In this document: positions 5,063 to 26,393 of the stretch, in pieces | How positions within the stretch are numbered: position 1 is the stretch's first letter | Layout of the letters: each line of letters opens with the position of its first letter | Translations under genes and position numbers: made by a program | Origin: a virus | IMG/VR virus record: IMGVR_UViG_3300046796_000315 | Coordinates: 1-33,692 of that record | Reading direction: 5' to 3' (one strand) | Length of the DNA: 33,692 bases | The notes under the pieces: model-generated | The model's input: only the letters and a program-made list of their open reading frames with translations | What the model was told of the DNA's origin: nothing | The model's database searches: none

Positions 5063-5067
5063 ATCCT

Positions 5068-5870: not shown

Positions 5871-6169
5871 CAGACTGTCGCCGCGGCCAGTGCCTTAGCT
5901 GTCCTCTTGGCCTTCTTCATGGCCTTGCGCTGGACCTTCGTCCCGCGGAACTTGTCGACGCGAATGAAGCAGATCGGTGCTTCGACGCCAGAGCGCAGGC
6001 GGGCAACCTTCACTGCGTACTTGTGGCCTGAGCGCATCTCGAAGAACGGTTGGCCCTTCGGCAGCGCGTTAGCGACTGCCACTGGCGAAACGATCGTGAC
6101 CTTCTGCTCCGGCTTTGCCTTCCACGCGTGGCGATCTTCCTTCGGGGTCTTCTTAAACAAAGAGATCAT
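5870..6169 (-). CDS. basic hypothetical protein (99 aa)
   Basis: The product is strongly basic, especially at the C-terminus (KVQRKAMKKAKRTAKAL), and has a short beta-rich centre (GHKYAVKVARL). It starts 17 nt inside the end of the DUF2800 gene and has GAGGAG 7 nt in front of its ATG. Position between DUF2800 and DUF2815 suggests an accessory nucleic-acid-binding role in replication. No family is recognised. Confidence 0.65.
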   Translation of the reverse strand: MISLFKKTPKEDRHAWKAKPEQKVTIVSPVAVANALPKGQPFFEMRSGHKYAVKVARLRSGVEAPICFIRVDKFRGTKVQRKAMKKAKRTAKALAAATV

Positions 6170-7403: not shown

Positions 7404-7801
7404 CCTAACAGATCCTTTGCAGCTGTCGCCTTAACGAACTCAGCTTGCTGGTCTGCGATGGCTTTCGCGAGGGCAGGATAATCCGCAGCAGCGACGTCAG
7501 CCAGCTGTGCGGCCTTGAACTGTGAGAGGGTTGCCTTCGCTTTATCCATGTCGATCTTGGCGACGGCCACGAGGGCTTTGCCGAGCTCTTCACGGGTCAC
7601 GACGGGAATGGCTTCCTTCGGTACTTCAGCCACCGGTGTCGCTACGACCGGCTTCACTGGTACCACGTTTTCCGCGGGCGTAGGTGCCGCGGAAGGGACG
7701 AATCCAGGGGCCCCGTTGCCGAGCTTCGCATCGATCGATGTGAGCAGTGCGATCACCGGCTGCAGGGCGGTTTCGAGAACTTTCAACAACAACTTATCCA
7801 T
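7400..7801 (-). CDS. helical protein with Pro/Ala linker (133 aa)
   Basis: An N-terminal helix (MDKLLLKVLETALQPVIALL) is followed by a Pro/Val/Ala-rich linker (about residues 35-70). A C-terminal helical segment (TREELGKALVAVAKIDMDKAKATL) resembles small helical modules common in phage recombination-region proteins. The start at 7801 is chosen because GGAGG lies 8 nt upstream, inside the end of the previous gene. It overlaps DUF2800 by 4 nt. Function unknown; an adaptor for the adjacent nuclease is a reasonable guess. Confidence 0.65.
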   Translation of the reverse strand: MDKLLLKVLETALQPVIALLTSIDAKLGNGAPGFVPSAAPTPAENVVPVKPVVATPVAEVPKEAIPVVTREELGKALVAVAKIDMDKAKATLSQFKAAQLADVAAADYPALAKAIADQQAEFVKATAAKDLLG

Positions 7802-8936
7802 TGTAACGGCCTCCATTAATGATTCGGTTAGGGTCAATCAGACAGACGGATGATACCGAAGAACCAAACGTACTGTCAAGAACTACTTTGAACGCTTTCT
7901 TCTGAAGATGGCAGCGTTCGATTTCATCTTCGTGGCGAGCGATCGTCGACTTCAGATCTTCGATGGCCTTCTTCAGCGCAATGATTTCTCCGCTGGTATC
8001 TTTCCGCTGCCGTTGTACCAGTTCGTAGAAGTCTGAACCGGCCTTCTTGATGTCGACGATGCGCCGAGTCAGCGTGCTGATATCCGCTTCGAATTTCTTT
8101 TTCTCTTGGCAGGCTTTTGCGCTGACATCGATGCGCGTATCGTCGGCGGATTTCAAACGCTGCTCGAGCTCCTGCCGTTCCCGCGCAAAGATAACACCCT
8201 GGTTCAAATACTCGATCCCAAGTTTTTCTTTCTCGCGTCGAAGATCCCCGCACTTCTCGTTTATCTTCGATGCAACGTCCAGCGCATCGTCGCGTTGCTT
8301 CGTCCTCTCCCTGAGCTTCGTCTCGAGATCGTTGATTATTTTGTTGATCTCGTTCGACACCCCGTGATAAGCCTTTTCCACCTTGGGGTACATCTTTTCA
8401 AAGGCTTCCACCGGCATGTAGTATTTGAACGAATGGCTGGCCTGCTTCGCGAAGTGATTGCCGTAGTAGTACAGCTGCTGTTCTGCTTGCTTCGCGGCGT
8501 ACTCCCACTTCTGCGCCAGTCGGAAGTTCTCAGTCGCCTTCCGTTCCATGTCGTTGAACTTTTTAGCCCAATAGAAGGCTTCATCCCGTAGGTCTGAGAC
8601 AGTTTTCAGGAATCCGGCGCGGATTTCCGTTGTCAACCGTGCCTTGACAGCCTCGAAGCCTGCCTCATTGAAAAGCTGAAAATAGCTCTTCTCCGTTTCC
8701 TTGTCCTTCACTGCTCCCGCCATCTCCTGCAGGGCTGCTTTGTTCGCTGCCATCATGTTGTACTGCTGCGCTGTCGGTGGTGGGGTTGTCGGCCCCGGTC
8801 CCGCCTGCGCCCCGATCGATGACAGCAGTGCCGCGTGCTCCTTCGCCTGCTTCAGGTTCTGCTCCTCGATCTCCGCCTTCCGCTGTCGGTGTTTGATCCG
8901 GTCGTTTTCCGTCCAGTTCCACATTTCCCACGCCAT
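7794..8936 (-). CDS. large coiled-coil protein (380 aa)
   Basis: Nearly the whole protein is charged and helical. Long heptad-like stretches cover about residues 195-350 (for example LRREKEKLGIEYLN, IIALKKAIEDLKSTI). A Pro-rich hinge (PGPTTPPPTA) lies near residue 50. There is no ATP-binding motif, so it is not an SMC ATPase. The start is strong, with GAGGAGG 7 nt before the ATG. The first 272 nt overlap the end of the upstream gene in a different frame. It could be a structural scaffold for replication or DNA handling, but no family is recognised. Confidence 0.75.
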   Translation of the reverse strand: MAWEMWNWTENDRIKHRQRKAEIEEQNLKQAKEHAALLSSIGAQAGPGPTTPPPTAQQYNMMAANKAALQEMAGAVKDKETEKSYFQLFNEAGFEAVKARLTTEIRAGFLKTVSDLRDEAFYWAKKFNDMERKATENFRLAQKWEYAAKQAEQQLYYYGNHFAKQASHSFKYYMPVEAFEKMYPKVEKAYHGVSNEINKIINDLETKLRERTKQRDDALDVASKINEKCGDLRREKEKLGIEYLNQGVIFARERQELEQRLKSADDTRIDVSAKACQEKKKFEADISTLTRRIVDIKKAGSDFYELVQRQRKDTSGEIIALKKAIEDLKSTIARHEDEIERCHLQKKAFKVVLDSTFGSSVSSVCLIDPNRIINGGRYNG

Positions 8937-9609
8937 TATTGGCCTCCTCTTCGTTGTTGAATTCGGTCATGTTGTTTGCGAGTAAGTCCAGCTGTTCGGC
9001 TAGCACGACGCATTTCCTCGGGCCGAACTTGCCCGCGTAGTAGTCGGTCAGAATTTGCAGCAATGATTTCAAATCAATCTCCGCCTGGCGCTGCGTGATC
9101 CAGTGGATAGCTTTGACGACGTCCGCGTCGGAGATCTTCTGCCCAAAGATGGCAGCGTAGGACATCCGCACACCGGACTCCCAGATGGTGTCCTTCTTTG
9201 CGGCTGCAGCCTCAAGGGCAACACGCCGCATGTGAAGCAGTGCTCTCTTCCATTCCTGCTCCGGGGTCAACTTACGGCGGCGTTGGAGCGCGAGATCGCC
9301 ATACGGATCCTGCTCTTCTTCCTCTTTCGCCGCGGCTGCGATGACGATCGGTGACATTTCCTCTGCGAGGTATGCCTCGAGAGACTTCAGGAGCTCAGGT
9401 CGTTCCTCCCGCAGCTTGAAGAAGTCCAGTGCTGCGTGCGGATCCGGCGCGCCGTTCTTGACGCCAAAGGCATAGTTGGCTTTGCCGTTGACGGGATCGC
9501 GCGCGTAGAGCTTGTACCGCCCCTCGCCTGTCTTGCTCAGGTTCCAGATGCCGATCTCAGCGAGGAACTCGCCGGTCGGCTTGCCCTTGTTGGTTCGTGT
9601 TGTGCTCAT
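8665..9609 (-). CDS. hypothetical protein with disordered tail overlapping the next gene (314 aa)
   Basis: The first 220 or so residues look globular and mostly helical (EQEWKRALLHMRRVAL, SDADVVKAIHWITQR). The remaining 90 are a low-complexity Gly/Asp/Glu/Ser tail ending GEELFSAFQ. The tail is encoded by the same DNA that encodes the start of the coiled-coil protein in another frame. The start at 9609 has GAGGAG 8 nt upstream and overlaps the 42-residue gene by 4 nt. The globular part is very likely real. Whether the tail is made depends on ribosomes reading through the strong internal start site. No family is recognised. Confidence 0.7.
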   Translation of the reverse strand: MSTTRTNKGKPTGEFLAEIGIWNLSKTGEGRYKLYARDPVNGKANYAFGVKNGAPDPHAALDFFKLREERPELLKSLEAYLAEEMSPIVIAAAAKEEEEQDPYGDLALQRRRKLTPEQEWKRALLHMRRVALEAAAAKKDTIWESGVRMSYAAIFGQKISDADVVKAIHWITQRQAEIDLKSLLQILTDYYAGKFGPRKCVVLAEQLDLLANNMTEFNNEEEANNGVGNVELDGKRPDQTPTAEGGDRGAEPEAGEGARGTAVIDRGAGGTGADNPTTDSAAVQHDGSEQSSPAGDGGSSEGQGNGEELFSAFQ

Positions 9610-9734
9610 CGAAGGTGCTCCTCTATCCAACGCCTGATGTCAGTCGCAATGTCACACAGCTGCTGGCTGTTGCATTCTGATGCGATCTCATCGAGGGCTG
9701 ATGCGATGATGTTCAGTAAAAGTTTGTGGCTCAT
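9606..9734 (-). CDS. small helical protein (42 aa)
   Basis: The frame is joined by ATGA overlaps to the lipoprotein gene before it and the 314-residue gene after it. The product begins MSHKLLLNII and is predicted to be helical, with two cysteines and an acidic/basic C-terminus. It also carries the GAGGAG site of the next gene. Function unknown. The two stop/start overlaps support it as a gene. Confidence 0.55.
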   Translation of the reverse strand: MSHKLLLNIIASALDEIASECNSQQLCDIATDIRRWIEEHLR

Positions 9735-9982
9735 TTTGCCCCCGCTGGTGCATAGCATATATGACCCTCAGGAACGACGAAGGCGTGCAGCCGACCGCTC
9801 TGAGAGTTTTCAGATCCAGACACCGAGATATGACTGTCGATGGCAATGCAGCGACCTGAAGTATCTCTTAGATAGATGAAGCCATCCTCGATCTTGACGC
9901 TGTCCTTGGTAGGACGTTCTTCCTCCAAGCAACCGGCCAGCAGGACGGTCGCCGTCAACAGTGCAATGAATGATTTTCTCAT
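9731..9982 (-). CDS. predicted lipoprotein (83 aa)
   Basis: MRKSFIALLTATVLLAGC is a textbook lipoprotein signal, with LAGC as lipobox and Cys18 as the lipidated residue. Residue +2 is Leu, which in Gram-negative bacteria favours the outer membrane. The mature part of about 65 residues is mostly polar, beta-rich and has two further cysteines. The start at 9982 overlaps the stop of HNH copy 2 (ATGA) with AAGGA upstream. Known early phage lipoproteins often block superinfection by masking a receptor. That role is inferred here from type and position only. Confidence 0.75.
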   Translation of the reverse strand: MRKSFIALLTATVLLAGCLEEERPTKDSVKIEDGFIYLRDTSGRCIAIDSHISVSGSENSQSGRLHAFVVPEGHICYAPAGAK

Positions 9983-10395
9983 CGTGTTCCTTTCCAAAAA
10001 CGAAGATAGTTTTCCGCGGATCGTAATAGGCTAGGATCATCTTTAAAAAATCCCAGCCCTGAGTTGCATGTTGTGCAAAGAATTCCACGCTGAACTCCCG
10101 TTTGGTGATCGTGGTCCCCGCAAGGTCTTTTCATTTCACCTTTGCAAATGGCGCAGCAATTACCTTGAGATTCTAAGCGTGTCTGAAACATTTCTTCTGT
10201 GAATCCGGAAAGACCCTTTCGGTGTGAGATTCGGTTGGCTTTTCGATAGCCTTGCAGATCCCGGTTTCGCCATTCCTTGTTCTGCCTATGTTTCTTCTCT
10301 GCTATTCGCGGATAAAATTGGCGCGCCTTTGCATTTATTTTTGAACGGTTCTTTGCCGTATACTTGCGCTGCCTCTCCGCATTTGTCTTTACCAT
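9979..10395 (-). CDS. Endonuclease VII-type HNH nuclease, copy 2
   Basis: The 138-residue protein has a highly basic N-terminal half, followed by the zinc/HNH core. It shows Cys81/Cys84 (CAIC), GDHDH with catalytic His at 95-97, RGILC with Cys107/Cys110, and the LLRSAENYL helix. The core is the same as in copies 1, 3 and 4, while the N-terminal parts differ. It is linked by TAATG to the upstream zinc-ribbon gene and by ATGA to the lipoprotein. A free-standing homing or recombination nuclease is likely. Confidence 0.85.
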   Translation of the reverse strand: MVKTNAERQRKYTAKNRSKINAKARQFYPRIAEKKHRQNKEWRNRDLQGYRKANRISHRKGLSGFTEEMFQTRLESQGNCCAICKGEMKRPCGDHDHQTGVQRGILCTTCNSGLGFFKDDPSLLRSAENYLRFWKGTR

Positions 10396-10601
10396 TAAAG
10401 TGATTCCCAGCCGATAACGTTACGCAGCGCCCGCCGATGCTGCTCAATTTGTTCTTTCAATTCTGCGATGAACGCTGGCAGCGGTTCTTTCTTCGTTCGG
10501 AAGAAGACCAGGCATCGCTTCATCAGGTCCAGTGCGTCGACCGAGCTCATCGGGTGCGGCGCGATTCGTGTCTTGCAGACTCGGCATTTAAGTTTTCTCA
10601 T
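10395..10601 (-). CDS. small zinc-ribbon-like protein (68 aa)
   Basis: MRKLKCRVCKTR contains one CxxC at the N-terminus. A helical, Lys/Glu/Arg-rich remainder follows. The ATG at 10601 is preferred over one 6 nt earlier because GGGAG then lies 7 nt upstream. It is the first gene after the candidate promoter at 10620-10650 and overlaps HNH copy 2 by one base (TAATG). Function unknown. Confidence 0.65.
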   Translation of the reverse strand: MRKLKCRVCKTRIAPHPMSSVDALDLMKRCLVFFRTKKEPLPAFIAELKEQIEQHRRALRNVIGWESL

Positions 10602-10619
10602 ATACATGCTCCCGGGACG

Positions 10620-10650
10620 ACCATAGCATAGCCGCCCCGGGGCGAGTCAA
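10620..10650 (-). promoter_or_regulatory. candidate early promoter with palindromic spacer
   Basis: On the minus strand, TTGACT (10645-10650) is followed after 19 bp by TATGGT (10620-10625), which has an extended -10 TGC in front. The spacer begins with the perfect 12-bp palindrome CGCCCCGGGGCG (10633-10644), a likely operator. It sits in one of the few gaps of the early block, directly before the zinc-ribbon/HNH/lipoprotein genes. Confidence 0.45.
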
Positions 10651-10653
10651 GGA

Positions 10654-11133
10654 TTAAATGTCGTTCAGCAAGCGGTTGGCTTCCTCCTTCAAAGCCTTCA
10701 GCGACTGACGTCGGGTTTCAAGGGTCTGCTCCGTTTTCTGCATCTCGAGCTCCGCGTTCTTGACAGACCACTGGAGTACCGCCAGTCGGTCCTTGCGGGC
10801 CTGCGCCCGACGGTGCCACGCTTCGCACTCTGCCTTCATCGACTCATAAGACGAGTCAGGCGTGCGTGCCAGTGTCACGAAGCCTTGATGCTTGCCGGGA
10901 TTGCCCCGGGCCAAGATCGCTCGAGCGACATGGATGCTGCTCTGAGCAATCGGGATCAGCATCATACTGAGCTCAGTCCGATGGGGACCAGTCATCGCGA
11001 AGAAGGGCAGTTCGAATGCGCGACAGTCGCACTCCGTTCTGACGCATGCGCCAGTGCCGAGTTTGACATCAGGGATTGCAGATTCGAAGTGCAGGAACGC
11101 TTGGTGTCCGCACTTGCAAAGATTATCGAGCAT
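10654..11133 (-). CDS. zinc-finger plus coiled-coil protein (159 aa)
   Basis: The N-terminal 40 residues have a Cys/His cluster (CKCGHQAFLHF, then CVRTECDC) that would bind zinc. The middle is hydrophobic/helical and the C-terminal 60 residues form a coiled coil (QKTEQTLETRRQSLKALKEE). GGAGGTG lies 5 nt upstream of the start. It overlaps the upstream 134-residue gene by 11 nt. Similar N-terminal zinc modules occur in many phage proteins of unknown function. Confidence 0.7.
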   Translation of the reverse strand: MLDNLCKCGHQAFLHFESAIPDVKLGTGACVRTECDCRAFELPFFAMTGPHRTELSMMLIPIAQSSIHVARAILARGNPGKHQGFVTLARTPDSSYESMKAECEAWHRRAQARKDRLAVLQWSVKNAELEMQKTEQTLETRRQSLKALKEEANRLLNDI

Positions 11134-11527
11134 TTTTCACCTCCAGAAAGCGGACGATTTCGGACAGGGTCGGCTCGGTCAGTGGCAAGGGCTTGCGTGC
11201 AGCTTTCGGCTTGTCGTCGGCCGAGAAAAAAGTGAAGCCCAGGGCTCCGGCCTTGAGGATGAAACCGATGTACTTCCTCACGCCGTCCTGATTCGCGCGT
11301 CGACGCCTTACGAAGATGATCTCTTCGTCGGTGGTCAATTGATTTGCTTGATTCGAGTTGAACTCGAGAATGTCGAACCGATCGGTTCGCTTCGGCATGC
11401 TGACACTGAATCCTTTGATGGCACCGTACCTCTCGATGCCCGTCAGCGCGCCCTGTAATGTCCGCATGGCTGCTGTCGCCGTGCTTCCGTCCTGTGCCTC
11501 GATCTCTACCGTAAATGTCCTTCTCAT
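11123..11527 (-). CDS. hypothetical protein (134 aa)
   Basis: The product begins MRRTFTVEIE and has an alpha/beta-like N-terminal half and a basic, Lys-rich C-terminal segment. The start at 11527 has GGAGG 5 nt upstream and overlaps the stop of the 31-residue membrane peptide (ATGA). A longer reading to 11569 has no site and would overlap that peptide. No family is recognised. Confidence 0.65.
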   Translation of the reverse strand: MRRTFTVEIEAQDGSTATAAMRTLQGALTGIERYGAIKGFSVSMPKRTDRFDILEFNSNQANQLTTDEEIIFVRRRRANQDGVRKYIGFILKAGALGFTFFSADDKPKAARKPLPLTEPTLSEIVRFLEVKNAR

Positions 11528-11619
11528 TTCTTCCTCCAAGTTGTGTCGCCGGATCGGATCACTGCCCAAAAGTAGAGAGCGATCAAACCGACTCCGATTA
11601 ATTCCAATGTCATTTCCAT
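11524..11619 (-). CDS. 31-residue single-span membrane peptide
   Basis: The frame begins MEMTLELIGV. One hydrophobic helix spans about residues 5-21 and the C-terminus is positive (TTWRKK). GGAGG lies 6 nt before the ATG, and the stop overlaps the next gene's ATG (ATGA). It is the first gene after the promoter candidate at 11669-11698. Small phage membrane peptides of this kind can interfere with host membrane enzymes, but the role here is unknown. Confidence 0.6.
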   Translation of the reverse strand: MEMTLELIGVGLIALYFWAVIRSGDTTWRKK

Positions 11620-11668
11620 ATTCAACCTCCAGCTATTCCCCGGAGCATCTCCGGTGTAATCACTTAGA

Positions 11669-11698
11669 ACAGTACCAAACGTCCCTGATTGATGTCAA
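11669..11698 (-). promoter_or_regulatory. candidate early promoter
   Basis: A perfect -35 TTGACA (11693-11698) is followed by an 18-bp spacer and TACTGT (11669-11674) with an extended TGG in front. It lies just downstream of the 120-residue gene and would drive the membrane peptide and the genes after it. Confidence 0.5.
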
Positions 11699-11701
11699 CT
11701 T

Positions 11702-12064
11702 TTATTTTACCACCTCCCAATCGATTGTCTTGGTCAGGCCCAGAGCCCATCCCAGAGCGGCGCAGGCTCCGTCAAGACAGCCGGCGACGTAATCGACGTC
11801 CTGTTCTTTGACTGCGTGCAGTTCGTCCAGCTTTGCGCGGAGCGTAGCGAAGTCGAGGACGTCCCCTATTGGTGCTTTTGGAAGTGATGGGTGTGTCCCC
11901 GCCGCAAAGGCCAAACATTCGGTGCAATCCCCAGCCTCGACAGTTGTCGCTGTCAGGCCTTCGAGTCCTTCGAACAATCGAATCGCGCAGTCCCCGCAGA
12001 GGTCGTTGCGCTCGTCGACGAAGTATTTCGCTTTGTTCACTTGCTTCGGATTTTCAATCGGCAT
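11702..12064 (-). CDS. zinc-ribbon-like hypothetical protein (120 aa)
   Basis: Two CxxC pairs (CGDC at about residues 23-26 and CTEC at about 47-50) suggest a structural zinc site in the N-terminal half. The C-terminal half is helical and Ala/Leu-rich. AGAGGA lies 7-8 nt in front of the ATG. The gene overlaps the upstream Cys-rich gene by 11 nt. No family is recognised. Confidence 0.7.
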   Translation of the reverse strand: MPIENPKQVNKAKYFVDERNDLCGDCAIRLFEGLEGLTATTVEAGDCTECLAFAAGTHPSLPKAPIGDVLDFATLRAKLDELHAVKEQDVDYVAGCLDGACAALGWALGLTKTIDWEVVK

Positions 12065-12227
12065 TTTGTGTCCTCTCTTTTTCGAAAATTTTTGGGAAGC
12101 CAGGTTTTCCCTGATTAAGCCAGTCGACGCAGTCAGGGCAACATGTCTCGTACGGTGTGCAGCAGTGGTCTACGCCGTTCGGCCGGTGGCACAGGTAGCA
12201 GAACAGGTAGACCGTGATGCAACTCAC
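12054..12227 (-). CDS. cysteine-rich small protein (57 aa, GTG start)
   Basis: The product has eight cysteines in its first 33 residues, arranged as C..C..C...CC...CC..C together with histidines (for example CYLCH and CCPDC). This pattern points to a compact zinc-binding fold. It begins with GTG in a GTGA overlap with the previous stop and has AGGAGG about 9 nt upstream. It ends inside the next gene. The function is unknown. Confidence 0.65.
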   Translation of the reverse strand: MSCITVYLFCYLCHRPNGVDHCCTPYETCCPDCVDWLNQGKPGFPKIFEKERTQNAD

Positions 12228-12406
12228 GATTGGGTGTCCTCCTGCAGTGCTTCGAATTTCATGTCGATGATGGACAGCTTGAGCTCTTCGATGGAGTCCA
12301 TCAAGTCCTCATACTGGCGTTTGTTCAGGCGATGCGTGATCGGATATGCCGCTTGGTGTTGCATCTGGTTCAGCATGTCCTCGGCCTCTTTGATTGAGTT
12401 AAACAT
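12224..12406 (-). CDS. small helical protein (60 aa)
   Basis: The product, beginning MFNSIKEAED, is almost entirely helical, with acidic and hydrophobic residues in a coiled-coil-like order. It overlaps the upstream gene by 8 nt and the downstream one by 4 nt. No domain is recognised. Confidence 0.6.
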   Translation of the reverse strand: MFNSIKEAEDMLNQMQHQAAYPITHRLNKRQYEDLMDSIEELKLSIIDMKFEALQEDTQS

Positions 12407-12590
12407 TGGATCCTTTCGTCAGTCGGTTAAAGATTGCCCGGGCCAATCTCTCCGACCCGTATTCGCTTGCTGCGCCCATCCGTTTGATGAAAGCGCCGCA
12501 GCTGTGATTCCAGTAGGAGAAGGTGCCATCCTCCTCCGCGCGCACGATGATGTGTTTGCCTGCCATCGGCAGCAGTTGGATGTCCTTCAC
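12399..12590 (-). CDS. small hypothetical protein (63 aa, GTG start)
   Basis: The most likely start is the GTG at 12590, in a GTGA overlap with the methyltransferase-like gene and preceded by GGGGG. The product begins MKDIQLLPMA and contains beta-strand-like IIVRAEEDGTFSYW and a helical C-terminus. A longer frame further upstream would run antiparallel to the methyltransferase codons and looks like an artefact. No function is recognised. Confidence 0.55.
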   Translation of the reverse strand: MKDIQLLPMAGKHIIVRAEEDGTFSYWNHSCGAFIKRMGAASEYGSERLARAIFNRLTKGSNV

Positions 12591-13225
12591 AGCTGCCCCC
12601 ACTGTTCGGCCATTGCGTCCGCGATGCCGTCGAAGGTGGTGGACCGCAGCTGCCATCGATCCGCAGAAGGTGGCAGGAAATGGACCCGCTGCCACGCCTT
12701 GCGCTCCGCGGCGTCCTTGGGTGGTGGTCCTACGATGTTCGTCGGCTGAAGCTGTGGCAGGCCCTTCAGCCACAGGCAGGTGGACTTCATTTCCTTATGC
12801 CCAAACTGCCACGGGTGGATGATCTGATCGTACAGGCCGATGTGTTCGCGCGAGTACTTGTGCGGCACAGGGTTTTCAATGGCAACCTTCACACTGGAGT
12901 GGAGGTTCTGGAATAGCTGGAAGAACTTGATCGCCTCCTCCAGTTTCGCCCAGCGATCAGCGCCGTACGCGATTGTCGGATCCGGATTATTCGGGATTGT
13001 GGTGAACCATCGCACACCAGAGTTAGTGTGGTAAGTGCAGGGCGGATGCGCGATGACAAGATCCCAGCCCTCAAACAGGACGTCCCGAACGTCGCCCTGA
13101 TAGTGTTTGTATTTGTTCTCCGTCGACGTCGACGCCAGCATGTCGCAGCTGTACGCGTTGTGGCCCCGGCGGATGAAAGCATCGCGGACCTTCCCAGAGT
13201 ATTCGCAAGCAACTAAAACTTTCAC
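12587..13225 (-). CDS. cytosine-methyltransferase-like protein (212 aa)
   Basis: The protein opens with a nucleotide-fold motif (VLVACEYSGKVRDAF). It carries HPPCTY at about 60-65, the place of the catalytic Pro-Cys of C5 methyltransferases, and IENPV at 116-120, resembling motif VI. It is much shorter than a full Dcm-type enzyme and lacks a clear target-recognition domain. This compact form is common in phages and may protect phage DNA, but activity is unproven. It starts with GTG, with GGGAG upstream. Neighbours are small uncharacterised early proteins. Confidence 0.75.
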   Translation of the reverse strand: MKVLVACEYSGKVRDAFIRRGHNAYSCDMLASTSTENKYKHYQGDVRDVLFEGWDLVIAHPPCTYHTNSGVRWFTTIPNNPDPTIAYGADRWAKLEEAIKFFQLFQNLHSSVKVAIENPVPHKYSREHIGLYDQIIHPWQFGHKEMKSTCLWLKGLPQLQPTNIVGPPPKDAAERKAWQRVHFLPPSADRWQLRSTTFDGIADAMAEQWGQL

Positions 13226-13227
13226 GT

Positions 13228-13521
13228 CTAATTTCTCCCTTCACATTTAACCGGCATCACGTCAGCGTCGACCTGTGATCCCGGGACGTTTTTGAAGTGG
13301 TACGTTTTGATGGCCCACATCTTGACGCCTTCCTTGTATACCGGCTCTTCGAACATTTGTACAGCATAATCGCACAGGGCGCAATCGCTCCGAAAGACCC
13401 CGCTGGAATCCCTGTCCCAAGGGCTATCCGCCCAAGGGCTGACGCCACTCACCATTTCATGTCCCGCGCGAGTCGCCTCCGCGAGAAATTTCCGTCGAGC
13501 CCTACCAAAGTCAGTCAGCAT
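13228..13521 (-). CDS. hypothetical protein with CxxC (97 aa)
   Basis: The product begins MLTDFGRARR. It has an Asp/Trp-rich central part (WADSPWDRD), a CALC pair near residues 47-50 and a further Cys near the end. GGGAGAGG lies just in front of the ATG. It ends 2 nt before the methyltransferase-like gene, suggesting co-translation. Function unknown. Confidence 0.65.
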   Translation of the reverse strand: MLTDFGRARRKFLAEATRAGHEMVSGVSPWADSPWDRDSSGVFRSDCALCDYAVQMFEEPVYKEGVKMWAIKTYHFKNVPGSQVDADVMPVKCEGRN

Positions 13522-13562
13522 ACACCTCTCCCTTTCAAAAAGTTAAGCGCCAGGTTTCACGC

Positions 13563-13568
13563 ACTATA
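13563..13568 (-). promoter_or_regulatory. possible -10 box (TATAGT)
   Basis: A TATAGT hexamer lies in the 62-bp gap upstream of the 97-residue gene. No good -35 sequence is seen at the usual distance, so this is only a weak candidate. Confidence 0.25.
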
Positions 13569-13583
13569 CCGCGTAGCCCGCTA

Positions 13584-13868
13584 TTAGCGCAGGCCCGCGA
13601 TCGATTTCAACTCGGCCTTGATCCGGCGCGCGTCGTCGCCCTTCCACGTCTGAGCATTCGCGAGGAAGTAAAGCACGATGGACTTGGCGCTGTCCTGTCC
13701 GTAGTTATCGGACATATCGCGCAGGTCGCCCATCGCATCGAGGTACGGCACTGCGCCAAACCAAACGTTTTTCCACGTCTTGCGGATCTCACGAGCGATG
13801 GTAAAGAGCGCTCGCGGTTGCGGCTTGGGCAGTTCACTCAATTCAGGTGTCATGTAATCTTCTAACAT
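13584..13868 (-). CDS. conserved-looking helical protein (94 aa)
   Basis: The product contains TIAREIRKTWKNVWFGAVPYLDAM, here split as TIAREIRKTW and FGAVPYLDAM at about residues 23-46. Such segments recur in small proteins of phages and bacteria with unknown function. The rest is helical. GGAGG lies 6 nt upstream of the ATG. A small alpha-helical regulator or adaptor is likely, but no named family can be assigned from the sequence. Confidence 0.65.
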   Translation of the reverse strand: MLEDYMTPELSELPKPQPRALFTIAREIRKTWKNVWFGAVPYLDAMGDLRDMSDNYGQDSAKSIVLYFLANAQTWKGDDARRIKAELKSIAGLR

Positions 13869-13898
13869 AGTATCCCTCCAGTTTCGATCAAAGGCGTA

Positions 13899-13916
13899 GG
13901 GCCCAGTGACGGGCCC
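13899..13916 (-). other. GGGCCC/GGGCCC hairpin between genes
   Basis: Two GGGCCC blocks around a six-base loop can pair in the 59-bp gap between the 144- and 94-residue genes. Only a weak CCTTTG follows on the minus strand, so termination would be partial at best. Confidence 0.35.
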
Positions 13917-13927
13917 CGGCAGACTCT

Positions 13928-14362
13928 TTACGCCTGAGCGGATCCGAACACCGCATTTTCAGCTGCGACCTTTTGCAAGGGCTCCATTTTACGGACGATA
14001 TCCGCAGCCCTGAACAGATAGACGGTGCCGTTTGATGTCGCCAGTACCGGACGCGTCCGCGCGGACGTCCTGAGGCCACTGATCGTAAAGACGCGTCCCT
14101 GTGCAGTGAACTCCCGCCCGAAGTACTCCGGTTTCAGCCCGTAGTACCGCGCGTTGTTGTCCCAGATCATTTTCGCGCCTGAGAACCCCTCCGCGTTTTC
14201 CTTCAATTCGAAACTGGCGGAAAGCTTCGCGCCAGTGTCCGAGAACTGGCACCGCGTGGGTGCCAATGTCAGCCCGCGCGCCTCCGCGAAAGCCTTGCAC
14301 ACCTGATCAAAGTCCGCGTGAATTTCCTTTGCCGTTTGCCTATCCATTTTCGTGTATTTCAT
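13928..14362 (-). CDS. hypothetical protein (144 aa)
   Basis: The product begins MKYTKMDRQT. It has a helical N-terminus and a mixed alpha/beta centre (FSGAKMIWDNNARYYGLKP). A beta-rich part follows (GREFTAQGRVFTISGL), then a helical end. AGGACAGGACA precedes the ATG. No domain is recognised. The length and order of segments suggest a single globular protein of the early block. Confidence 0.65.
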   Translation of the reverse strand: MKYTKMDRQTAKEIHADFDQVCKAFAEARGLTLAPTRCQFSDTGAKLSASFELKENAEGFSGAKMIWDNNARYYGLKPEYFGREFTAQGRVFTISGLRTSARTRPVLATSNGTVYLFRAADIVRKMEPLQKVAAENAVFGSAQA

Positions 14363-14385
14363 TGTCCTGTCCTTTCGATTGTGAT

Positions 14386-14586
14386 TTAAGAGTTACGGGC
14401 GTTGCGCTGAATCATTTTGATTTGCATCTCAAAATCAGATGCAATTCGAATGGTGTTGTTAAAACCTGCCTGCGTGAGTTTCCCCATTGCTTGCAGGTCG
14501 TCCGCGCGTCCGATGACCTGAGCGATTGCATGCTGCAGTCGTTTGATGCGCGCCTCATCGAAGCGAATTTTTGCTGGTGTTCTCAT
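14386..14586 (-). CDS. small helical protein (66 aa)
   Basis: The product, beginning MRTPAKIRFD, is basic and helical, with an amphipathic segment around residues 10-50. It is coupled by ATGA to the upstream 45-residue gene, whose end supplies GGAGGAT. It could bind nucleic acid, but there is no recognised motif. Confidence 0.6.
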   Translation of the reverse strand: MRTPAKIRFDEARIKRLQHAIAQVIGRADDLQAMGKLTQAGFNNTIRIASDFEMQIKMIQRNARNS

Positions 14587-14720
14587 GACTTGCTATCCTC
14601 CAAAGCTATCAGCTGATCTAGTTCCGTCGACAGTGTGCAGTGTGCCGGATCACAACCTGCGTGTTCCTCCTGCAATCGTTTCAAAGCTTGCAACAATTCC
14701 CAGAGCTCAGTATTCCGCAT
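14583..14720 (-). CDS. small helical protein (45 aa)
   Basis: The frame begins MRNTELWELL and is mostly helical and acidic, with two cysteines near the middle. It starts 4 nt after the stop of the 239-residue gene, with AGGA upstream, and overlaps the next ATG. Function unknown. Confidence 0.55.
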   Translation of the reverse strand: MRNTELWELLQALKRLQEEHAGCDPAHCTLSTELDQLIALEDSKS

Positions 14721-14724
14721 TGTC

Positions 14725-15444
14725 CTATCCTTTCACCACAAAGTTAGAGTCTGATTTCCGCGCGCGGCCTTTTGCTTTCAGGCCAACAATGACGCGCTTT
14801 GGATCCAAAAATCTCAGGTCGCTTTCGTCGCCGTTCACTACCTGCAATCCCATGAATTTCTCAGCCAGAGGGCCCGCGAAAACGACCGCGGCATTGAGTC
14901 CGTTTTCGATGTACCGTGACGCGTGAAACTTGCTTGCAATCGTCTCGCTAAGCGAGAATGTCAGATGGTAGTTAATGCAGGTAAATGCTCCCATCCGATC
15001 AGTCAAAGGCGCCTTTGTATAATCGTAAAACTGGATTCCAGCAAAGCGCGTAAAGACGTTCGCAAAATTCCCGCACCTGATCGATTCCCATTTGATATCA
15101 GACGTTCCATTTAACCGAAACACTGGCTCTAGTTCCCTGTCCCAAGCGTACCGTATCGCCTTGCTGATTTCCTTTTCCAGCTGCAGCATGAAAGCTTTCT
15201 GATCTTCGAAGAAAAACTTCGTTCGAGCAATGCGGGCCCGCTGGATTACGTTGGACGTCTCGCCAGTTTTGAAGATTCCCCCGCGCCCTGCAGTGTTAAG
15301 GCAGAGCGCTGTGCAACCCTTGCTGCGATACTGGCAAACTTCATAACCGGAGAGATCAGCGGGCGCAAGGTGCAAAATGAAAGTCAGATAGCCTTTCGTC
15401 TCGCCTTTCATTGTTTTCGGGTTTCCCTTTGTCAGAAGTACCAT
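14725..15444 (-). CDS. conserved phage protein with three-Cys cluster (239 aa)
   Basis: The product begins MVLLTKGNPK and contains GYLTFILHLAPADLSG. A cysteine group follows (CQYRSKGCTALCLNTAG, about residues 37-53), then an Arg-rich helix and an alpha/beta C-terminal half. Related sequences are familiar from other phages as proteins of unknown function. The C-x6-C-x3-C pattern could hold a metal or an Fe-S cluster, but no enzyme family can be named. It follows the 58-residue gene by 1 nt and is the largest protein near the centre of the divergent region. Confidence 0.7.
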   Translation of the reverse strand: MVLLTKGNPKTMKGETKGYLTFILHLAPADLSGYEVCQYRSKGCTALCLNTAGRGGIFKTGETSNVIQRARIARTKFFFEDQKAFMLQLEKEISKAIRYAWDRELEPVFRLNGTSDIKWESIRCGNFANVFTRFAGIQFYDYTKAPLTDRMGAFTCINYHLTFSLSETIASKFHASRYIENGLNAAVVFAGPLAEKFMGLQVVNGDESDLRFLDPKRVIVGLKAKGRARKSDSNFVVKG

Positions 15445-18911: not shown

Positions 18912-19373
18912 ATGACGAAAGAAGAGAAAGCCGCGTACAACAAGAAGTATCGGGAGGCAAACCGCGACAGACTTCGGGAATCATTGCAAGCTTGGAAAGA
19001 AAAGAACCGAGTGCATGTCCGGAAATACGCACGCGCCCACCGAAAAGAAAATCCAGAAATTTACAAAGCTTCACGTAAGCGCCAGTATGAGGCACTGACT
19101 CCGGAGCGCAAGGCAGAGGAGTATCAGAAGACCCTCGCCAGGCTCCGAAAAACTTATGGCTTCACCGGATCGATGTTCGAAGATAGACTGAAAGAGCAGC
19201 GCGGGAAGTGCGCTGTTTGTAAAGTGAAAAAAGCTGTGGCCGCGGATCATAATCACAAAACGAAAAAGGCGCGAGGTATTCTCTGCAAACCTTGTAACCA
19301 CGCGCTCGGATTGTTTTTTGAATCGCCAGAAGTCTTGAGAAACGCAGCCTTGTACTTGGAGAGGTGGGCCTGA
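18912..19373 (+). CDS. Endonuclease VII-type HNH nuclease, copy 3 (next to terminase)
   Basis: The 153-residue protein has a very basic, helical N-terminal 80 residues. The HNH core follows: Cys100/Cys103 (CAVC), ADHNH at 111-115, RGILC with Cys125/Cys128, then LRNAALYLERW. Its stop overlaps the terminase start (TGATG). HNH proteins encoded beside terminase genes are known to assist DNA packaging in some phages, so this copy might have a packaging role; alternatively it is a homing nuclease like the others. The ATG has no Shine-Dalgarno sequence. Confidence 0.85.
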   Translation: MTKEEKAAYNKKYREANRDRLRESLQAWKEKNRVHVRKYARAHRKENPEIYKASRKRQYEALTPERKAEEYQKTLARLRKTYGFTGSMFEDRLKEQRGKCAVCKVKKAVAADHNHKTKKARGILCKPCNHALGLFFESPEVLRNAALYLERWA

Positions 19374-21224: not shown

Positions 21225-21668
21225 ATGGGACTTACAGACTTTATCAGCGGGCTCTTGAAACCCGCTTCAGACATCATCGACGAACTTCACACGAGTGAGG
21301 ACGAGAAGCTTGCGGCCAAGGCCAAGCTCCTGACGATCCACGTTCAGGCGGCATCCGCTGCGCTCGACTACGAAAAACAACTGGCGATCGAACAAGGCGA
21401 GACAGTCCGCGCAGAGGCCAAAGGCGAATCCTGGATCCAGCGATCTTGGCGCCCGCTGACGATGCTGATGTTCGCATCGATCATCGGGTTCAACTATCTG
21501 GTCGTGCCAATCGCCGGGATGTTCAGCAGGAACATCGTTGTGCTGGTATTGCCTGTTGATCTTTGGGATCTGCTGAAGATCGGCATCGGTGGTTATATCG
21601 CCGGCCGCTCGGCAGAGAAGATTGTTCCAACAATCGTGAGCGCATTTAAAACAAAGGATCTAACATGA
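21225..21668 (+). CDS. holin of the 3TM/GTA-holin type (147 aa)
   Basis: A charged amphipathic N-terminal half ends in the family hallmark ESWIQRSWRPLTMLMF. Hydrophobic segments follow at about residues 78-98 and 103-126 and a Lys-rich end. This matches the 3TM holin family found in gene transfer agents and many phages, which makes membrane lesions that release or activate the endolysin. It overlaps the endolysin start by 4 nt. Upstream, TAAACT ends 6 nt before the ATG; a weak GGAG lies 12 nt away. Confidence 0.85.
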   Translation: MGLTDFISGLLKPASDIIDELHTSEDEKLAAKAKLLTIHVQAASAALDYEKQLAIEQGETVRAEAKGESWIQRSWRPLTMLMFASIIGFNYLVVPIAGMFSRNIVVLVLPVDLWDLLKIGIGGYIAGRSAEKIVPTIVSAFKTKDLT

Positions 21669-22087
21669 ACGACGAAAAGTTAAACGCACTGATTCAGGAG
21701 CATGAGGGCCTGCGCCTCCGGGCGTATCAGGACAGCGTCGGGGTATGGACAATCGGCTACGGCACGAATCTGCAGGAGCTCGTCATTGACCAGCCCACCG
21801 CGGCGAAGTTTCTGGAGGTTGGGATCTTCAGCGCGCGTGTTGCCGCAAAGATGTTTCCCCAGTGGCATTTCCTCGACACAGATGCCCGCCAGAACGCGTT
21901 CGTTGAATTGGTGTACAACATTGGCCCGAACCGCCTGGCGTTCTTCAAGAAGGCCCTCGAGGCGATCAGCAGGCAGGATTGGGTGACTGTCGGGAAAGAG
22001 TTACTCAATTCGAAGTGGGCGACTCAGGTGGGCCAGAGAGCGCTTACGCTGATCGCGATGTTCCAGACCGGCGAGTTTCAGAAGTAG
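21665..22087 (+). CDS. endolysin, T4-lysozyme type (GH24)
   Basis: The 140-residue enzyme has the GH24 active site: Glu14 in HEGLRLRAY, Asp23 in YQDSVG and Thr29 in the WTIGYGTN segment. The C-terminal half has the usual helical lobe (ARQNAFVELVYNIG). It would cut the MurNAc-GlcNAc bonds of peptidoglycan. No signal peptide is present, so it needs the adjacent holin. Its end overlaps by 10 bp the end of the JAMM gene on the other strand. Confidence 0.92.
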   Translation: MNDEKLNALIQEHEGLRLRAYQDSVGVWTIGYGTNLQELVIDQPTAAKFLEVGIFSARVAAKMFPQWHFLDTDARQNAFVELVYNIGPNRLAFFKKALEAISRQDWVTVGKELLNSKWATQVGQRALTLIAMFQTGEFQK

Positions 22088-22500
22088 GTAACCTTTGGGA
22101 TTGGGTTGGGGATATACCAATGCACATCCGTTCGATGACCGTCACTATCGACAAAGACAACTCCGCAGACAGCCTCGCCCCACTTGAGCGCGGAGCGGAT
22201 GTCGGACTTGGACAGGTGCCAGCATACCGGATCCGCGGTAGTGTCGCAATGGCTATGGATAGTTCCGATCCAATCTTCGTCCTTTCGCAGGGCAGCACGC
22301 TTGGATCGATAGATATCCGGTTCGTCAATCTCAATGCTGTGGCTCTTTGCGATGTGAACGACTGGAGCTATCTTCGTAATGAGAACGTCTCCTTCTGGCG
22401 AACGAGTCCCATAGAGAGCCGCGAAATGCTCGTTGGGGAACATGGCACGGCATTCCTTCCGGAAGGCTCGTAAAAGTTTGCGACTGCAGTGAATGATCAT
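22078..22500 (-). CDS. JAMM/MPN (JAB) domain metalloprotease, antisense (140 aa)
   Basis: The protein carries the JAMM zinc-protease residues in order: Glu24 in PNEHFAALYG, His82 and His84 in IHSH, then Ser97 and Asp100 in LSKSD. The loop between the second His and the Asp is about five residues longer than the common H-x-H-x10-D spacing. Length is that of a single MPN domain. Lambda-like phages have a JAB domain in a tail protein joined to NlpC/P60, but this one stands alone on the opposite strand between endolysin and portal. Isopeptide or peptide cleavage is known for the family; the target here is unknown. It is coupled by ATGA to a 20-residue leader. Confidence 0.8.
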   Translation of the reverse strand: MIIHCSRKLLRAFRKECRAMFPNEHFAALYGTRSPEGDVLITKIAPVVHIAKSHSIEIDEPDIYRSKRAALRKDEDWIGTIHSHCDTTADPVCWHLSKSDIRSALKWGEAVCGVVFVDSDGHRTDVHWYIPNPIPKVTYF

Positions 22501-22559
22501 GCTGCTACCAAATCGTGATCGGGGAACCACCGTAACCAAAAGTCAACAAAGAATCTCAT
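22497..22559 (-). CDS. 20-residue leader peptide before the JAMM gene
   Basis: A GGAGG site lies 6 nt in front of the ATG. The peptide MRFFVDFWLRWFPDHDLVAA ends in an ATGA overlap with the JAMM start, which itself lacks a good ribosome site. This arrangement suggests that translation of the leader loads ribosomes for the protease gene. The peptide is aromatic-rich and hydrophobic. It may have no function of its own. Confidence 0.5.
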   Translation of the reverse strand: MRFFVDFWLRWFPDHDLVAA

Positions 22560-22574
22560 TTCAGCCTCCAGAGG

Positions 22575-22587
22575 AAGTATAATACTT
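22575..22587. promoter_or_regulatory. bidirectional -10 palindrome AAGTAT-A-ATACTT
   Basis: This 13-bp inverted repeat lies in the 30 bp between the divergent portal and leader/JAMM starts. On the plus strand it holds TATAAT (22578-22583), ending 6 nt before the portal ATG. On the minus strand it gives TATTAT/TATACT. No clear -35 is seen on the plus side. Confidence 0.45.
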
Positions 22588-22589
22588 TT

Positions 22590-24803
22590 ATGGCAGCGAA
22601 CGCAATCCAGAACAAACGAGGCGTCCCCGGAAAAAAGATCTACGAGAACAAGCCGCCCTCGGATCAGTTTGCCGGGATGGACCTGAAGGAAAAGCTCAGA
22701 TCCGTAGTGGCTTACGTCCGCACATGTGATCGCGAACAGCGCATCCGTCGGAACACCGTCTTCTATCTGATGGCACTTTATTATCAGGGGTACCAGAATG
22801 TTGAACTCAGCCCGGGCACGTCTACGTTCGATATTTACGAGCGTGATGACTTCTACGTCGAAAACCAGTTTCGGCATCACGTCGATGCAGTGGTCAACTC
22901 CATCTCCAAAAACGAAGGAGACATCGTTATTCGACCGGCCTCGTCGAACCCGAAGGACATTACGAAAGCTCGCGTGGCAGGCCCGATTCTCGACATGCAG
23001 AAAGCGACCATCGGTTACCCCAGAGTCCGCGATCTGAAGAATCTGTACAAGGCCCTGTTCGGCAATGCGTTCATTTTCGTTGACTATATCCGCGACAAGA
23101 AGTACGGTTCTATCGTCACGCCGAAATTTGAATATCAGGAGATTCCAGATGAGCTCGACCCAACTGCTGAGCCATACATGTCAAAAGTGCCTGCGGGGGT
23201 TTCTAGCATCAACAAAGGCCGCGAAGTGTCCGTGGTGTGCTCTCCGCTCGAAATCGGAGTCCGCTCGGATACTAAAGGATTCGAGAACCTCCCGTGGCTC
23301 CAATGGATCTCTCGTCAAGACAATGAAGTTCTTAACTACATGTACCCTGGACTCGGAGCTTCCGGAGGATCCTCTGCTGTCGATGATGACCTCTCCCAGC
23401 AATACCTCGATGTACTTGCTCAACTGCCCGGATCTGTACTTGGGGACGCCGAAGCGATCAACATTGGAAACGCTCAAGTCAAAAAGTCCGAGTACGGAAG
23501 AACGTGGCTCGAGCCCTGCATGTTCGCTAACGATTCAGAGTTACTGCGACTCTTCCCAACTGGCGTCCATGTTGCAACGGTCAATGGGCAAGTGGTCGAC
23601 TACTATGAAGAAAGCCTTTTCGACCGGTGGACGCACGAAGTCCTGATCCCTGTGCCCCATTCGCTTTTAGGCGACGGGCTTTATGACGCTCTGCTTCTGC
23701 AGGACATCATCAACGAAGCAAATTCTCTGATCCTCCAGCACGTCCGGTATTCCACGGTCGGCCACAACGTCTACGATTCGACGATGATCGATCCGAAGGA
23801 CATCGTCAACGATCCGAAGAACGGATGGGTGCCAGCGAAGCCGGGACTCGAGAAGAAAATCAGCGAGTCCGTTTACCCAGTACATCCGCAGCAGCTGAGC
23901 GGCGACGTGCCGCAGTGGCTGGCCGCGAAGCTCGGATCCATGCAGGACATGACGAGCGCATACGATTCCTCCGTCGGCAAGAGTCTTGGGGCCAACACGC
24001 CGTATTCACAGAGCGTGTTCCTCAACGAACGGGCCCAGAGCCGATGGCAGGGATCGCTCTCTTACAACAGACCAGAGATGGTCAGATTCCATCAACAGCT
24101 GCTCAAGATCGCGCAGACCGAATGGCTCGAGGGCCGCAGCAATGCGATCATCGCGAACACCGGTGCGTGGAGCTTCCAGGAATTCCAACAGGCCGATCTC
24201 GATGGAGAAATCGATATCAGCTTTAGCAATGCCGATATGGCGCCGAAGAGTCGATCGGACCAGATTCAAGCTTTGACGATGCTCGGCACAATGATGCCGC
24301 TGATCGCTGCGCTGCCACCGAAGCAGAAACTTCGCGTGGAAGAAATTCTCGGATTGCCGCCTGACGCGAATCCGACAAGCACGCAGCTGTCACGCGCGTA
24401 TCGTCAGATCGATCGCATCACGAACGGAGAGGTTGTCACGCCCCTACCTGGCGTTGACGATCCAAACCTGCAGGCGCCGGTGCTTGTCGACTTCCTCGCC
24501 AGTGAGGACGGGGAGTCTCTCGCATTGTCGGATCCGCAGACGTTCTCCAATGTGTACACATATTGGGCCGCTCTGATGCACATGCTTCAGATGCAGCAAG
24601 GATTCGTACAGCCGGGGCCGAATGGCCCACAACAGCCGCAGCAGGCCAACGGTGGCCCACAAGCGGGAGCGCCGGGGAAACCCCCGGGCGGTCAGCCGGG
24701 ACAGCAGGGTGGAGGGCCTAAAGGCGGGCCGGGATCACCGACTCAGCCGCAGGCTCAGGCACCGTCGCAGCCCGCACCACCTGTCGCTCCGCCGGCCGCG
24801 TAA
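22590..24803 (+). CDS. portal protein (737 aa)
   Basis: The size, position between terminase and scaffold, and overall pattern fit a podovirus-type portal. It has a helical N-terminal wing, LDMQKATIGYPRVRDLKNLYKALFGNAF (cut here to FGNAFIFVDY), a long central alpha/beta region and a helical stem around residues 520-590. The last 75 or so residues are a Pro/Gly/Gln-rich disordered tail. The portal ring forms the DNA entry vertex and docks the terminase and tail adaptor. A GAGGAAG lies too far (12-14 nt) for good initiation, so a leaderless start is possible. Confidence 0.85.
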   Translation: MAANAIQNKRGVPGKKIYENKPPSDQFAGMDLKEKLRSVVAYVRTCDREQRIRRNTVFYLMALYYQGYQNVELSPGTSTFDIYERDDFYVENQFRHHVDAVVNSISKNEGDIVIRPASSNPKDITKARVAGPILDMQKATIGYPRVRDLKNLYKALFGNAFIFVDYIRDKKYGSIVTPKFEYQEIPDELDPTAEPYMSKVPAGVSSINKGREVSVVCSPLEIGVRSDTKGFENLPWLQWISRQDNEVLNYMYPGLGASGGSSAVDDDLSQQYLDVLAQLPGSVLGDAEAINIGNAQVKKSEYGRTWLEPCMFANDSELLRLFPTGVHVATVNGQVVDYYEESLFDRWTHEVLIPVPHSLLGDGLYDALLLQDIINEANSLILQHVRYSTVGHNVYDSTMIDPKDIVNDPKNGWVPAKPGLEKKISESVYPVHPQQLSGDVPQWLAAKLGSMQDMTSAYDSSVGKSLGANTPYSQSVFLNERAQSRWQGSLSYNRPEMVRFHQQLLKIAQTEWLEGRSNAIIANTGAWSFQEFQQADLDGEIDISFSNADMAPKSRSDQIQALTMLGTMMPLIAALPPKQKLRVEEILGLPPDANPTSTQLSRAYRQIDRITNGEVVTPLPGVDDPNLQAPVLVDFLASEDGESLALSDPQTFSNVYTYWAALMHMLQMQQGFVQPGPNGPQQPQQANGGPQAGAPGKPPGGQPGQQGGGPKGGPGSPTQPQAQAPSQPAPPVAPPAA

Positions 24804-25879: not shown

Positions 25880-25933
25880 TTCACAGTCGCTGTGAAGAAG
25901 GCTCCGATCGTGAAGATCGGGGCCTTTTCTTTT
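25880..25933 (+). terminator. rho-independent terminator after the scaffold gene, with an extra hairpin
   Basis: A first hairpin (TTCACAG-TCG-CTGTGAA, 25880-25896) is followed at 25898-25926 by a 12-bp stem (AAGGCTCCGATC/GATCGGGGCCTT, one G-T pair) and TTTTCTTTT. It ends at the stop codon of the antisense HNH gene, so it may also slow leftward transcription. Confidence 0.85.
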
Positions 25934-26393
25934 ACCGCTCCAAGTAATCAGCTAGTGCGCGAAGTGTGATCGGGCTATCGAAGGCATGGCCGATAACGAG
26001 ATTGCACCAGTTGCAGAGTATTCCCCGGATCTTTCCAGATGCATGATCATGATCGATGCGCGCCTTTGTTTGTGAGTTGCAAACCTCACAGCCCTTCTCC
26101 CGTCGCTCAAATAATTTCTCCGCTTCAGCGAGGGTGACCTTATAGTTTTTTCGAATCTGATAAATTGAATGGCGCTTCGGATTTGCTTTTCGATATTTTT
26201 TCCCGCGCTCGCGATTCCCCTCCGGGTTAGCTGCAGCCCATGCTCGATAGCGCGCTGTTCGATCCATCTTGAACTTCGGATCCTTCTTTTTCTTTTCGTA
26301 GTACTTTCGCGACGACGCTTGCCTACTTTCTCTGTTTTCTTTCTGCCACTGATTGCGATACTCACGCGCTCTGTCTTTATCTTTGAAAGCCAT
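25932..26393 (-). CDS. Endonuclease VII-type HNH nuclease, copy 4 (antisense)
   Basis: The 153-residue protein has about 100 residues of Lys/Arg-rich helix. The HNH core follows: Cys102/Cys105 (CEVC), IDHDH at 113-117, RGILC with Cys127/Cys130, and the final LRALADYLER. GGAGGG lies just before the ATG. It is placed between a terminator and the capsid promoter, opposite to all surrounding genes, and its DNA looks more AT-rich than theirs. These are signs of a later insertion, as expected for a homing nuclease. Confidence 0.85.
   Translation of the reverse strand: MAFKDKDRAREYRNQWQKENRESRQASSRKYYEKKKKDPKFKMDRTARYRAWAAANPEGNRERGKKYRKANPKRHSIYQIRKNYKVTLAEAEKLFERREKGCEVCNSQTKARIDHDHASGKIRGILCNWCNLVIGHAFDSPITLRALADYLER

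Follow-up and report, generated by a model that had tools for sequence, protein, structure and literature searches.

The window analyzed here, a single virus record of 33,692 bases (IMGVR_UViG_3300046796_000315), carries a phage JAMM gene that is real, conserved, and of non-tail type, and the core of this gene has been replaced in one of two otherwise near-identical relatives. This localized allele replacement is the strongest new evidence at the locus. The gene product, referred to here as JAB, is probably a genuine, active zinc JAMM isopeptidase or C-terminal peptidase, judging from its sequence and modeled structure. In our favored reading, to which we assign a probability of about 0.42, JAB would be an active isopeptidase of the ubiquitin-like (Ubl) type that acts on a host conjugate in the infected cell, carried as an exchangeable counter-host gene.

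The antisense unit and its predicted promoter

The left arm of the window (864 to 15444) lies entirely on the − strand and is of replication type, encoding a DNA polymerase, a single-stranded DNA (ssDNA)-binding/annealing protein, a DUF2800 exonuclease, and GP88. The right arm, on the + strand, encodes a terminase, holin, endolysin, portal, scaffold-like acidic protein, major head protein, and SU10 adaptor. Given this gene set with its SU10-like portal (weak SU10/P22-type similarity) and adaptor, we class the phage as a predicted short-tailed (podovirus) type; no lambda-like tail-tip cluster was recognized in the gene content of the window. The window also has one tRNA-Phe (GAA) gene, at 4565 to 4636 (− strand), which Rfam RF00005 matched as well. 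Between the lysis and portal genes lies a small predicted antisense unit of two genes, a micropeptide followed by JAB. The features of this locus are as follows:

21665..22087, + strand: endolysin (phage lysozyme) gene, convergent neighbor of JAB (PF00959, 1e-13)
22078..22500, − strand: JAB/JAMM (MPN+) metallopeptidase gene, 140 aa (ATG 22500, stop 22078; PF14464)
22497..22559, − strand: 20-aa micropeptide MRFFVDFWLRWFPDHDLVAA (ATG 22559; its TGA ends at 22497 and overlaps the JAB start as ATGA)
22565..22569, − strand: GGAGG, Shine-Dalgarno site 5 nt upstream of the micropeptide ATG
22575..22587, both strands: 13-bp palindrome AAGTATAATACTT, a symmetric −10 element TATAATA
22590..24803, + strand: portal protein gene, divergent neighbor of the JAB unit (PHROG 156 portal, 3.1e-6)

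The ends of the endolysin and JAB genes overlap by 10 nt. A preliminary description of this DNA had JAB encoded against all of its neighbors; it does oppose the immediate ones, but a late-block gene at 25932 to 26393, an endonuclease VII/HNH gene, is also antisense. The latter is situated between the genes for the scaffold-like and major head proteins and is one of four related endonuclease VII/HNH genes (the others at 18912 to 19373 on the + strand and at 9979 to 10395 and 3913 to 4242 on the − strand; 28 to 34% identity by tblastn), which are likely free-standing homing-type endonucleases. The coupling of JAB to a 20-residue leader with a strong ribosome site, described previously, was borne out by the ATGA stop/start overlap behind the leader ATG at 22559 and by the GGAGG at 22569 to 22565.

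The promoter facing the portal gene had been described as a 30-bp palindrome. A palindrome does lie there, but the perfect palindrome spans 13 bp, not 30, and since the window contains 33 palindromes with arms of at least 6, palindrome length alone means nothing. The core, TATAATA, contains a −10 hexamer in either reading direction, in which the −11A of one strand pairs with the −7T of the other. The two predicted starts lie 18 bp apart. The one at 22590 on the + strand coincides with the first base of the portal ATG; the other, at 22572 on the − strand, precedes the start codon of the micropeptide by about 12 to 13 nt, an interval that includes GGAGG. A distance of 18 bp is the commonest start-site spacing of bacterial bidirectional promoters (PMC10268837). 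Described bidirectional promoters built on one symmetric −10 element (PMC10268837, PMC12825309) are alike in TAnnnTA, in the reciprocal −11A/−7T, and in the 18-bp distance found here between predicted starts. Unlike those promoters, the one at this locus is predicted from sequence. No classical −35/−10 promoters were found in 21600 to 23000, so the symmetric −10 is the one element on which the prediction depends. In two relatives described below (L003 and L004), the two palindrome arms differ from those of the window in a matched way (TGGTATCATACCA) that preserves the symmetry; in a third (L002), only −11A/−7T is kept. These observations fit a prediction in which the palindrome is a symmetric bidirectional promoter shared by the JAB unit and the portal gene.

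The portal transcript is possibly leaderless, with TATAAT at −12 to −7 from the portal ATG. A TAnnnT motif stands exactly 12 nt before the ATG of the genes starting at 22590 (TATAAT), 30664 (TATAAT), 21225 (TAAACT), and 17512 (TACAAT), that is, four genes versus 0.8 expected at one offset, and another offset also reaches four. Its presence before three other + strand genes is suggestive only, and leaderless starts may occur elsewhere among the late transcripts of the phage. If predicted correctly, the locus is a compact example from nature in which one symmetric promoter yields two kinds of transcript, one leaderless and one Shine-Dalgarno-led.

Conservation and local replacement of the JAB gene

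Three relatives (L002, L003, and L004) with portals 78 to 82% identical to that of the window were found in IMG/VR. A search for the same antisense gene in related phages, suggested in the preliminary description, was successful in all three: JAB lies between the endolysin and portal genes, in the same place, on the same strand, and behind the same leader. The encoded proteins are 56 to 61% identical to the window JAB, and each matches Prok-JAB above the cut-off (31.8 to 33.4 bits). Comparison of the window with these relatives gave a JAB pN of 0.27 to 0.31 versus a near-saturated pS of 0.73 to 0.81, indicating purifying selection. Taken together, the Prok-JAB match of the window protein (PF14464; E 1.7e-10; 41.2 bits against a cut-off of 25), the recurrence of its position, strand, and leader in three other phages, and pN below pS put the ORF well beyond chance.

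The micropeptide precedes JAB in all three relatives (MKFLLDFWLRWFPNDTLVLA, MKFFVEFWLRWFPDHSVIPA, and (MSN)FFVEFWLRWFPDHSVIPA) with a conserved core, FWLRWFP, and GGAGG-type sites are also present before it in L002 and L003. Its pN of 0.17 to 0.26 versus a pS of 0.76 to 0.95 (window versus relatives; pN/pS about 0.2 to 0.3) suggests that it, too, is under purifying selection. The peptide may be a binding partner or merely a translation coupler. The former would make JAB an active JAMM isopeptidase directed by the micropeptide, which would bind the enzyme or the membrane in a two-component effector. The low pN/pS speaks for such a partnership, as does retention of the peptide in L004 despite an ORF inserted before it. 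However, the peptide was not seen with other viral JABs, short overlapping ORFs are commonly translational couplers, and the sequences number four in all, three of them distinct; we therefore consider a directing role improbable. A scan with the micropeptide core gave 23 matches, with JAB downstream at just the three known loci. The inserted L004 ORF (MSIENVVQGL..., 73 residues from ATG) lies on the − strand, with the promoter on one side (about 9990) and the micropeptide on the other (about 9750), in the same direction as the micropeptide and JAB and with overlapping stop/start codons. It had no match among annotated phages.

The comparison of L003 with L004 revealed a divergence confined to JAB. 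Between these two phages, the lysozyme dN was 0.00 (no amino-acid change) and the portal dN 0.01, whereas JAB had a dN of 0.25 and a dS of 1.76. Identity along the alignment was about 50 to 75% in the JAB core and recovered toward both gene ends; in the flanks and the rest of the 8 kb, it was about 75 to 100%, mostly 80 to 100%. The endolysin, portal, and capsid are nearly identical despite the replaced JAB core. Point-by-point positive selection was rejected as an account of this divergence because dS is raised along with dN, and recombination import of a divergent allele fits better. From the replacement of the core between near-identical flanks in this one phage pair, we infer that JAB is an exchangeable accessory gene. 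Swapping between near-identical phages is expected of an accessory host-interaction gene, perhaps one of counter-defense, and not of a tail part.

Active site, predicted fold, and the stand-alone JAB family

The residues proposed as the zinc/catalytic set (Glu24, His82, His84, Ser97, and Asp100) are correctly numbered in the JAB ORF, and the single-domain build without NlpC/P60 also stands: the 140-aa protein consists of Prok-JAB alone. E24, H82, H84, and D100 are invariant in 19/19 diverse family sequences; S97 is found in 16/19, and the remaining 3 have Gly at this position. All five positions are retained in the four phages of the window clade, including the replaced L004 allele. The HSH-to-S gap is 12 residues in this clade and 7 to 9 in most other family members. 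The published JAMM motif, EXnH(S/T)HX7SXXD (PMC300881), has a spacing from which the clade departs by a 5-residue insertion in the loop spanning residues 84 to 97; we therefore file the site as a motif variant, not a canonical JAMM site. In addition, the usual Pro after HSH is replaced by Cys or Asn.

An AlphaFold2 model built from 4 sequences reached a pLDDT of 39.6 and was not used. With an alignment of 19 phage and bacterial relatives, the mean pLDDT was 88.9 and the pTM 0.83, with the HSH loop below the mean (pLDDT 75 to 80). The listed matches of this model were MPN proteins, active isopeptidases on top, with Z up to 16.0 over 118 to 128 residues. Pyrococcus furiosus JAMM1 with SAMP2 was the best aligned chain (Z 16.0; rmsd 1.7 over 118 residues); this SAMP2-binding enzyme is the closest in fold but is an archaeal cellular protein with 17% identity to JAB. 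Next were a Caldiarchaeum Rpn11 homolog (Z 15.9), CSN5 (14.4), Rpn11 (14.3), and BRCC36 (14.2), and the bacterial deconjugases BubCD and Cap3 scored 12.9 and 12.8, respectively. Foldseek gave E 1.4e-6 for both BilC (8tyx) and Cap3 (9ild). In the profile search, the solved proteins nearest in sequence were the bacterial lone JABs 2kcq and 2kks.

Structure prediction had been proposed as a check against Cap3, RadC, and lambda tail JAB domains. Active JAMM enzymes and Cap3 were indeed matched, but RadC proteins appeared solely far down the viral fold-match list; in Pfam, the RadC check returned Prok-JAB and a sub-threshold NucS_N alone, and in NCBIfam it returned desampylase weakly. The presence of an MPN active site, on which the earlier proposal turned, was upheld in that the model supports an MPN/JAMM fold with the active-site residues kept. 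A common fold is not by itself proof of activity. JAB could instead be an MPN protein whose catalysis is altered or lost and which protects a conjugate or tag by binding to it, as might be suspected from the X12 spacing where the published motif has X7 (PMC300881), from the Cys/Asn in place of Pro, and from the lower pLDDT of the HSH loop. This seems very unlikely to us, given that all five catalytic positions are kept across the clade, the replaced allele included, and that a pure binder would not need E24.

A single-sequence scan of viral contigs found no JAB relatives, and a scan with the first small alignment found the three close relatives alone. After the family alignment was extended with Tunturiibacter phage Tunturi_5 gp271, a Terriglobia MAG, and two further Acidobacteriota chromosomes, the scan yielded 20 viral loci, several near-identical to each other and two on contigs already known (L063 is the contig of L003 and L065 that of L002). 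The window and its relatives were joined with full support in a tree, their placement among long branches being unsure. In several large phages, JAB lies beside InPase, RelA/SpoT, 2H-phosphoesterase, PARP/KptA-like, and GP88 domain proteins; elsewhere it precedes a UDG-DNA polymerase fusion (L058) or is upstream of a dual-specificity phosphatase-like gene (L057). The JAB neighbors in L047 (5087 to 14481) and L005 (6494 to 12364) are long multidomain proteins that combine InPase with RelA/SpoT, InPase with GP88, or ART-PolyVal with GNAT and NUDIX; a further one combines a 2H-phosphoesterase (weak Acb1 match) with PARP/KptA-like and SprT-like domains. Such "polyvalent" multidomain proteins have been described as phage conflict proteins, with RadC the sole JAB type treated (PMC5512222). 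The window itself has a GP88 family gene at 14725 to 15444 (− strand, 1e-37), and GP88 is fused to InPase beside JAB in phage Tunturi_5.

Other lone Prok-JABs (2KCQ, 2KKS, Tunturi_5 gp271, and those of Brevibacterium phage Cantare and Gordonia phage Yikes) likewise have a single MPN domain with JAMM residues, are about 114 to 180 aa long, and lack NlpC/P60. The window JAB (28% identity to gp271) differs from them in its 12-residue HSH-S gap, antisense late-block place, coupled micropeptide, and symmetric promoter. No NlpC/P60 or TAPI partner was present among the examined neighbors of viral JABs, and none of the relatives examined has the domain inside a recognized tail protein, an arrangement that would have told against the earlier description. 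The fold search, the profile search, and the varied gene surroundings of viral relatives support a stand-alone, non-tail nature of JAB.

JAB domains are nevertheless known in lambda-type tail proteins (PMC1779556), and lambda TAPK, a JAB plus NlpC/P60 tail assembly protein, has a phage-encoded JAB domain in common with the window. JAB could accordingly be a virion assembly or maturation protease that cuts the portal, scaffold, or a tail protein, as proposed for TAPK on TAPI. Its place between the lysis and portal genes is compatible with such a role, as is the annotation "minor tail protein" of the Tunturi_5 relative. That relative is a lone 161-aa JAB with no tail gene adjoining; at this locus (L005, 5971 to 7822), the InPase-GP88 neighbor is named "minor head protein," and both names look questionable. 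Membership in the TAPK type was rejected for the window JAB, a 140-aa single domain flanked by endolysin and portal. Unlike TAPK, it has no NlpC/P60 and no Ubl TAPI and lies outside a tail cluster, in a podovirus-type genome (SU10-like portal and adaptor). In addition, JAB is antisense with its own predicted promoter, its relatives in other phages adjoin DNA polymerase or polyvalent genes, and its core was replaced while the endolysin, portal, and capsid stayed nearly identical. We judge a virion substrate to be improbable.

Host conjugates as candidate substrates

In a cellular alternative, modeled on bacterial JAMM enzymes of the Mec+/DRJAMM type, JAB would be a sulfur-carrier peptidase: it would free cysteine or precursors of cofactors from CysO/ThiS/MoaD-like carriers and would serve as an auxiliary gene for metabolism or stress adaptation. 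The closest solved sequences, the stand-alone bacterial 2kcq and 2kks, are consistent with this role. The Acidobacteriota chromosomal relatives also stand alone, with no conjugation genes recognized adjoining them. Furthermore, the bacterial enzyme DRJAMM is reported to cleave MoaD-MoaE (PMC8832034). No sulfur or cofactor gene, however, was recognized in the window or beside the viral relatives examined, and with a housekeeping substrate one would less expect the JAB core to be swapped. We regard a sulfur-carrier substrate as unlikely, although it is the alternative that we take most seriously.

In the favored reading, that of a Ubl-type isopeptidase, the micropeptide-JAB unit would be transcribed against the late operon from the symmetric promoter shared with the portal gene. 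During infection, JAB would then target a host protein bearing a ubiquitin-like or C-terminally conjugated tag and would cut the tag-protein bond. An exchangeable JAB would most likely be carried as a countermeasure to conjugation pathways of the host, among them Ubl-based or CBASS-type defense; as hypothesized in the preliminary description, the enzyme might reverse ubiquitin-like conjugation in antiphage defense. The Prok-JAB match, the deubiquitinase (DUB)-like fold, and the invariant E24/H82/H84/D100 argue for the isopeptidase, and the L003/L004 core replacement and the polyvalent conflict proteins beside related phage JABs lend indirect support to a role in counter-defense. This last step is plausible because bacterial JAB proteins deconjugate in CBASS, acting on CBASS cyclases (PMC10097602, PMC11153139).

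Several observations count against this reading. No Ubl, E1, or E2 genes were detected among the window proteins scanned, and PADLOC gave no defense JAB match, its best being a weak E1-E2 match at 0.01. Prok-E2_B is rare, occurring in 4/396 Acidobacteriota genomes, a phylum that is a guess as host; the portal profile had no match in these 396 genomes, which does not place the host elsewhere. The X12 spacing and the change of Pro to Cys/Asn could alter activity, and a place beside late genes is atypical for counter-defense. Moreover, the effect of Cap3 in one system is to raise immunity, not to lower it (PMC11153139). A Cap3-like enzyme encoded by a phage would therefore not necessarily benefit that phage, and the direction of its effect cannot be assumed.

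The MPN+ fold is common to JAB and to Cap3, BilC, and BubCD, but these are parts of host operons with E1/E2 partners, unlike JAB, and the sequence profile likeness is weak (Cap3, 0.0011; BilC, 0.016). JAB was not assigned to the CBASS Cap3/Bil deconjugases, having no E1/E2, CD-NTase, or Ubl neighbor and no PADLOC defense JAB match.

A more elaborate form of the counter-defense proposal, which we offer as speculative and rather unlikely, is that the FWLRWFP micropeptide and the loop-extended JAMM enzyme make up a two-component effector, made from the symmetric promoter in opposition to the late operon, that strips Ubl or CD-NTase conjugates off proteins of the host or the phage, the enzyme core being exchanged as it follows host defense diversity. 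If true, this would be viral deubiquitinase-like counter-defense in bacteria. In the literature searched, accessible in part and with subscription journals largely outside it, we found no report of phage-encoded JAMM counter-defense; Vs.4, a viral antagonist, acts at another step by binding cGAMP (PMC10097602). Ubl conjugation in bacterial antiviral defense was itself shown only recently. An exchangeable family of stand-alone phage JAMM proteins makes the question of whether phages carry deubiquitinases directly testable, since JAB offers a DUB-like fold predicted with good confidence together with catalytic positions that can be cleanly mutated.
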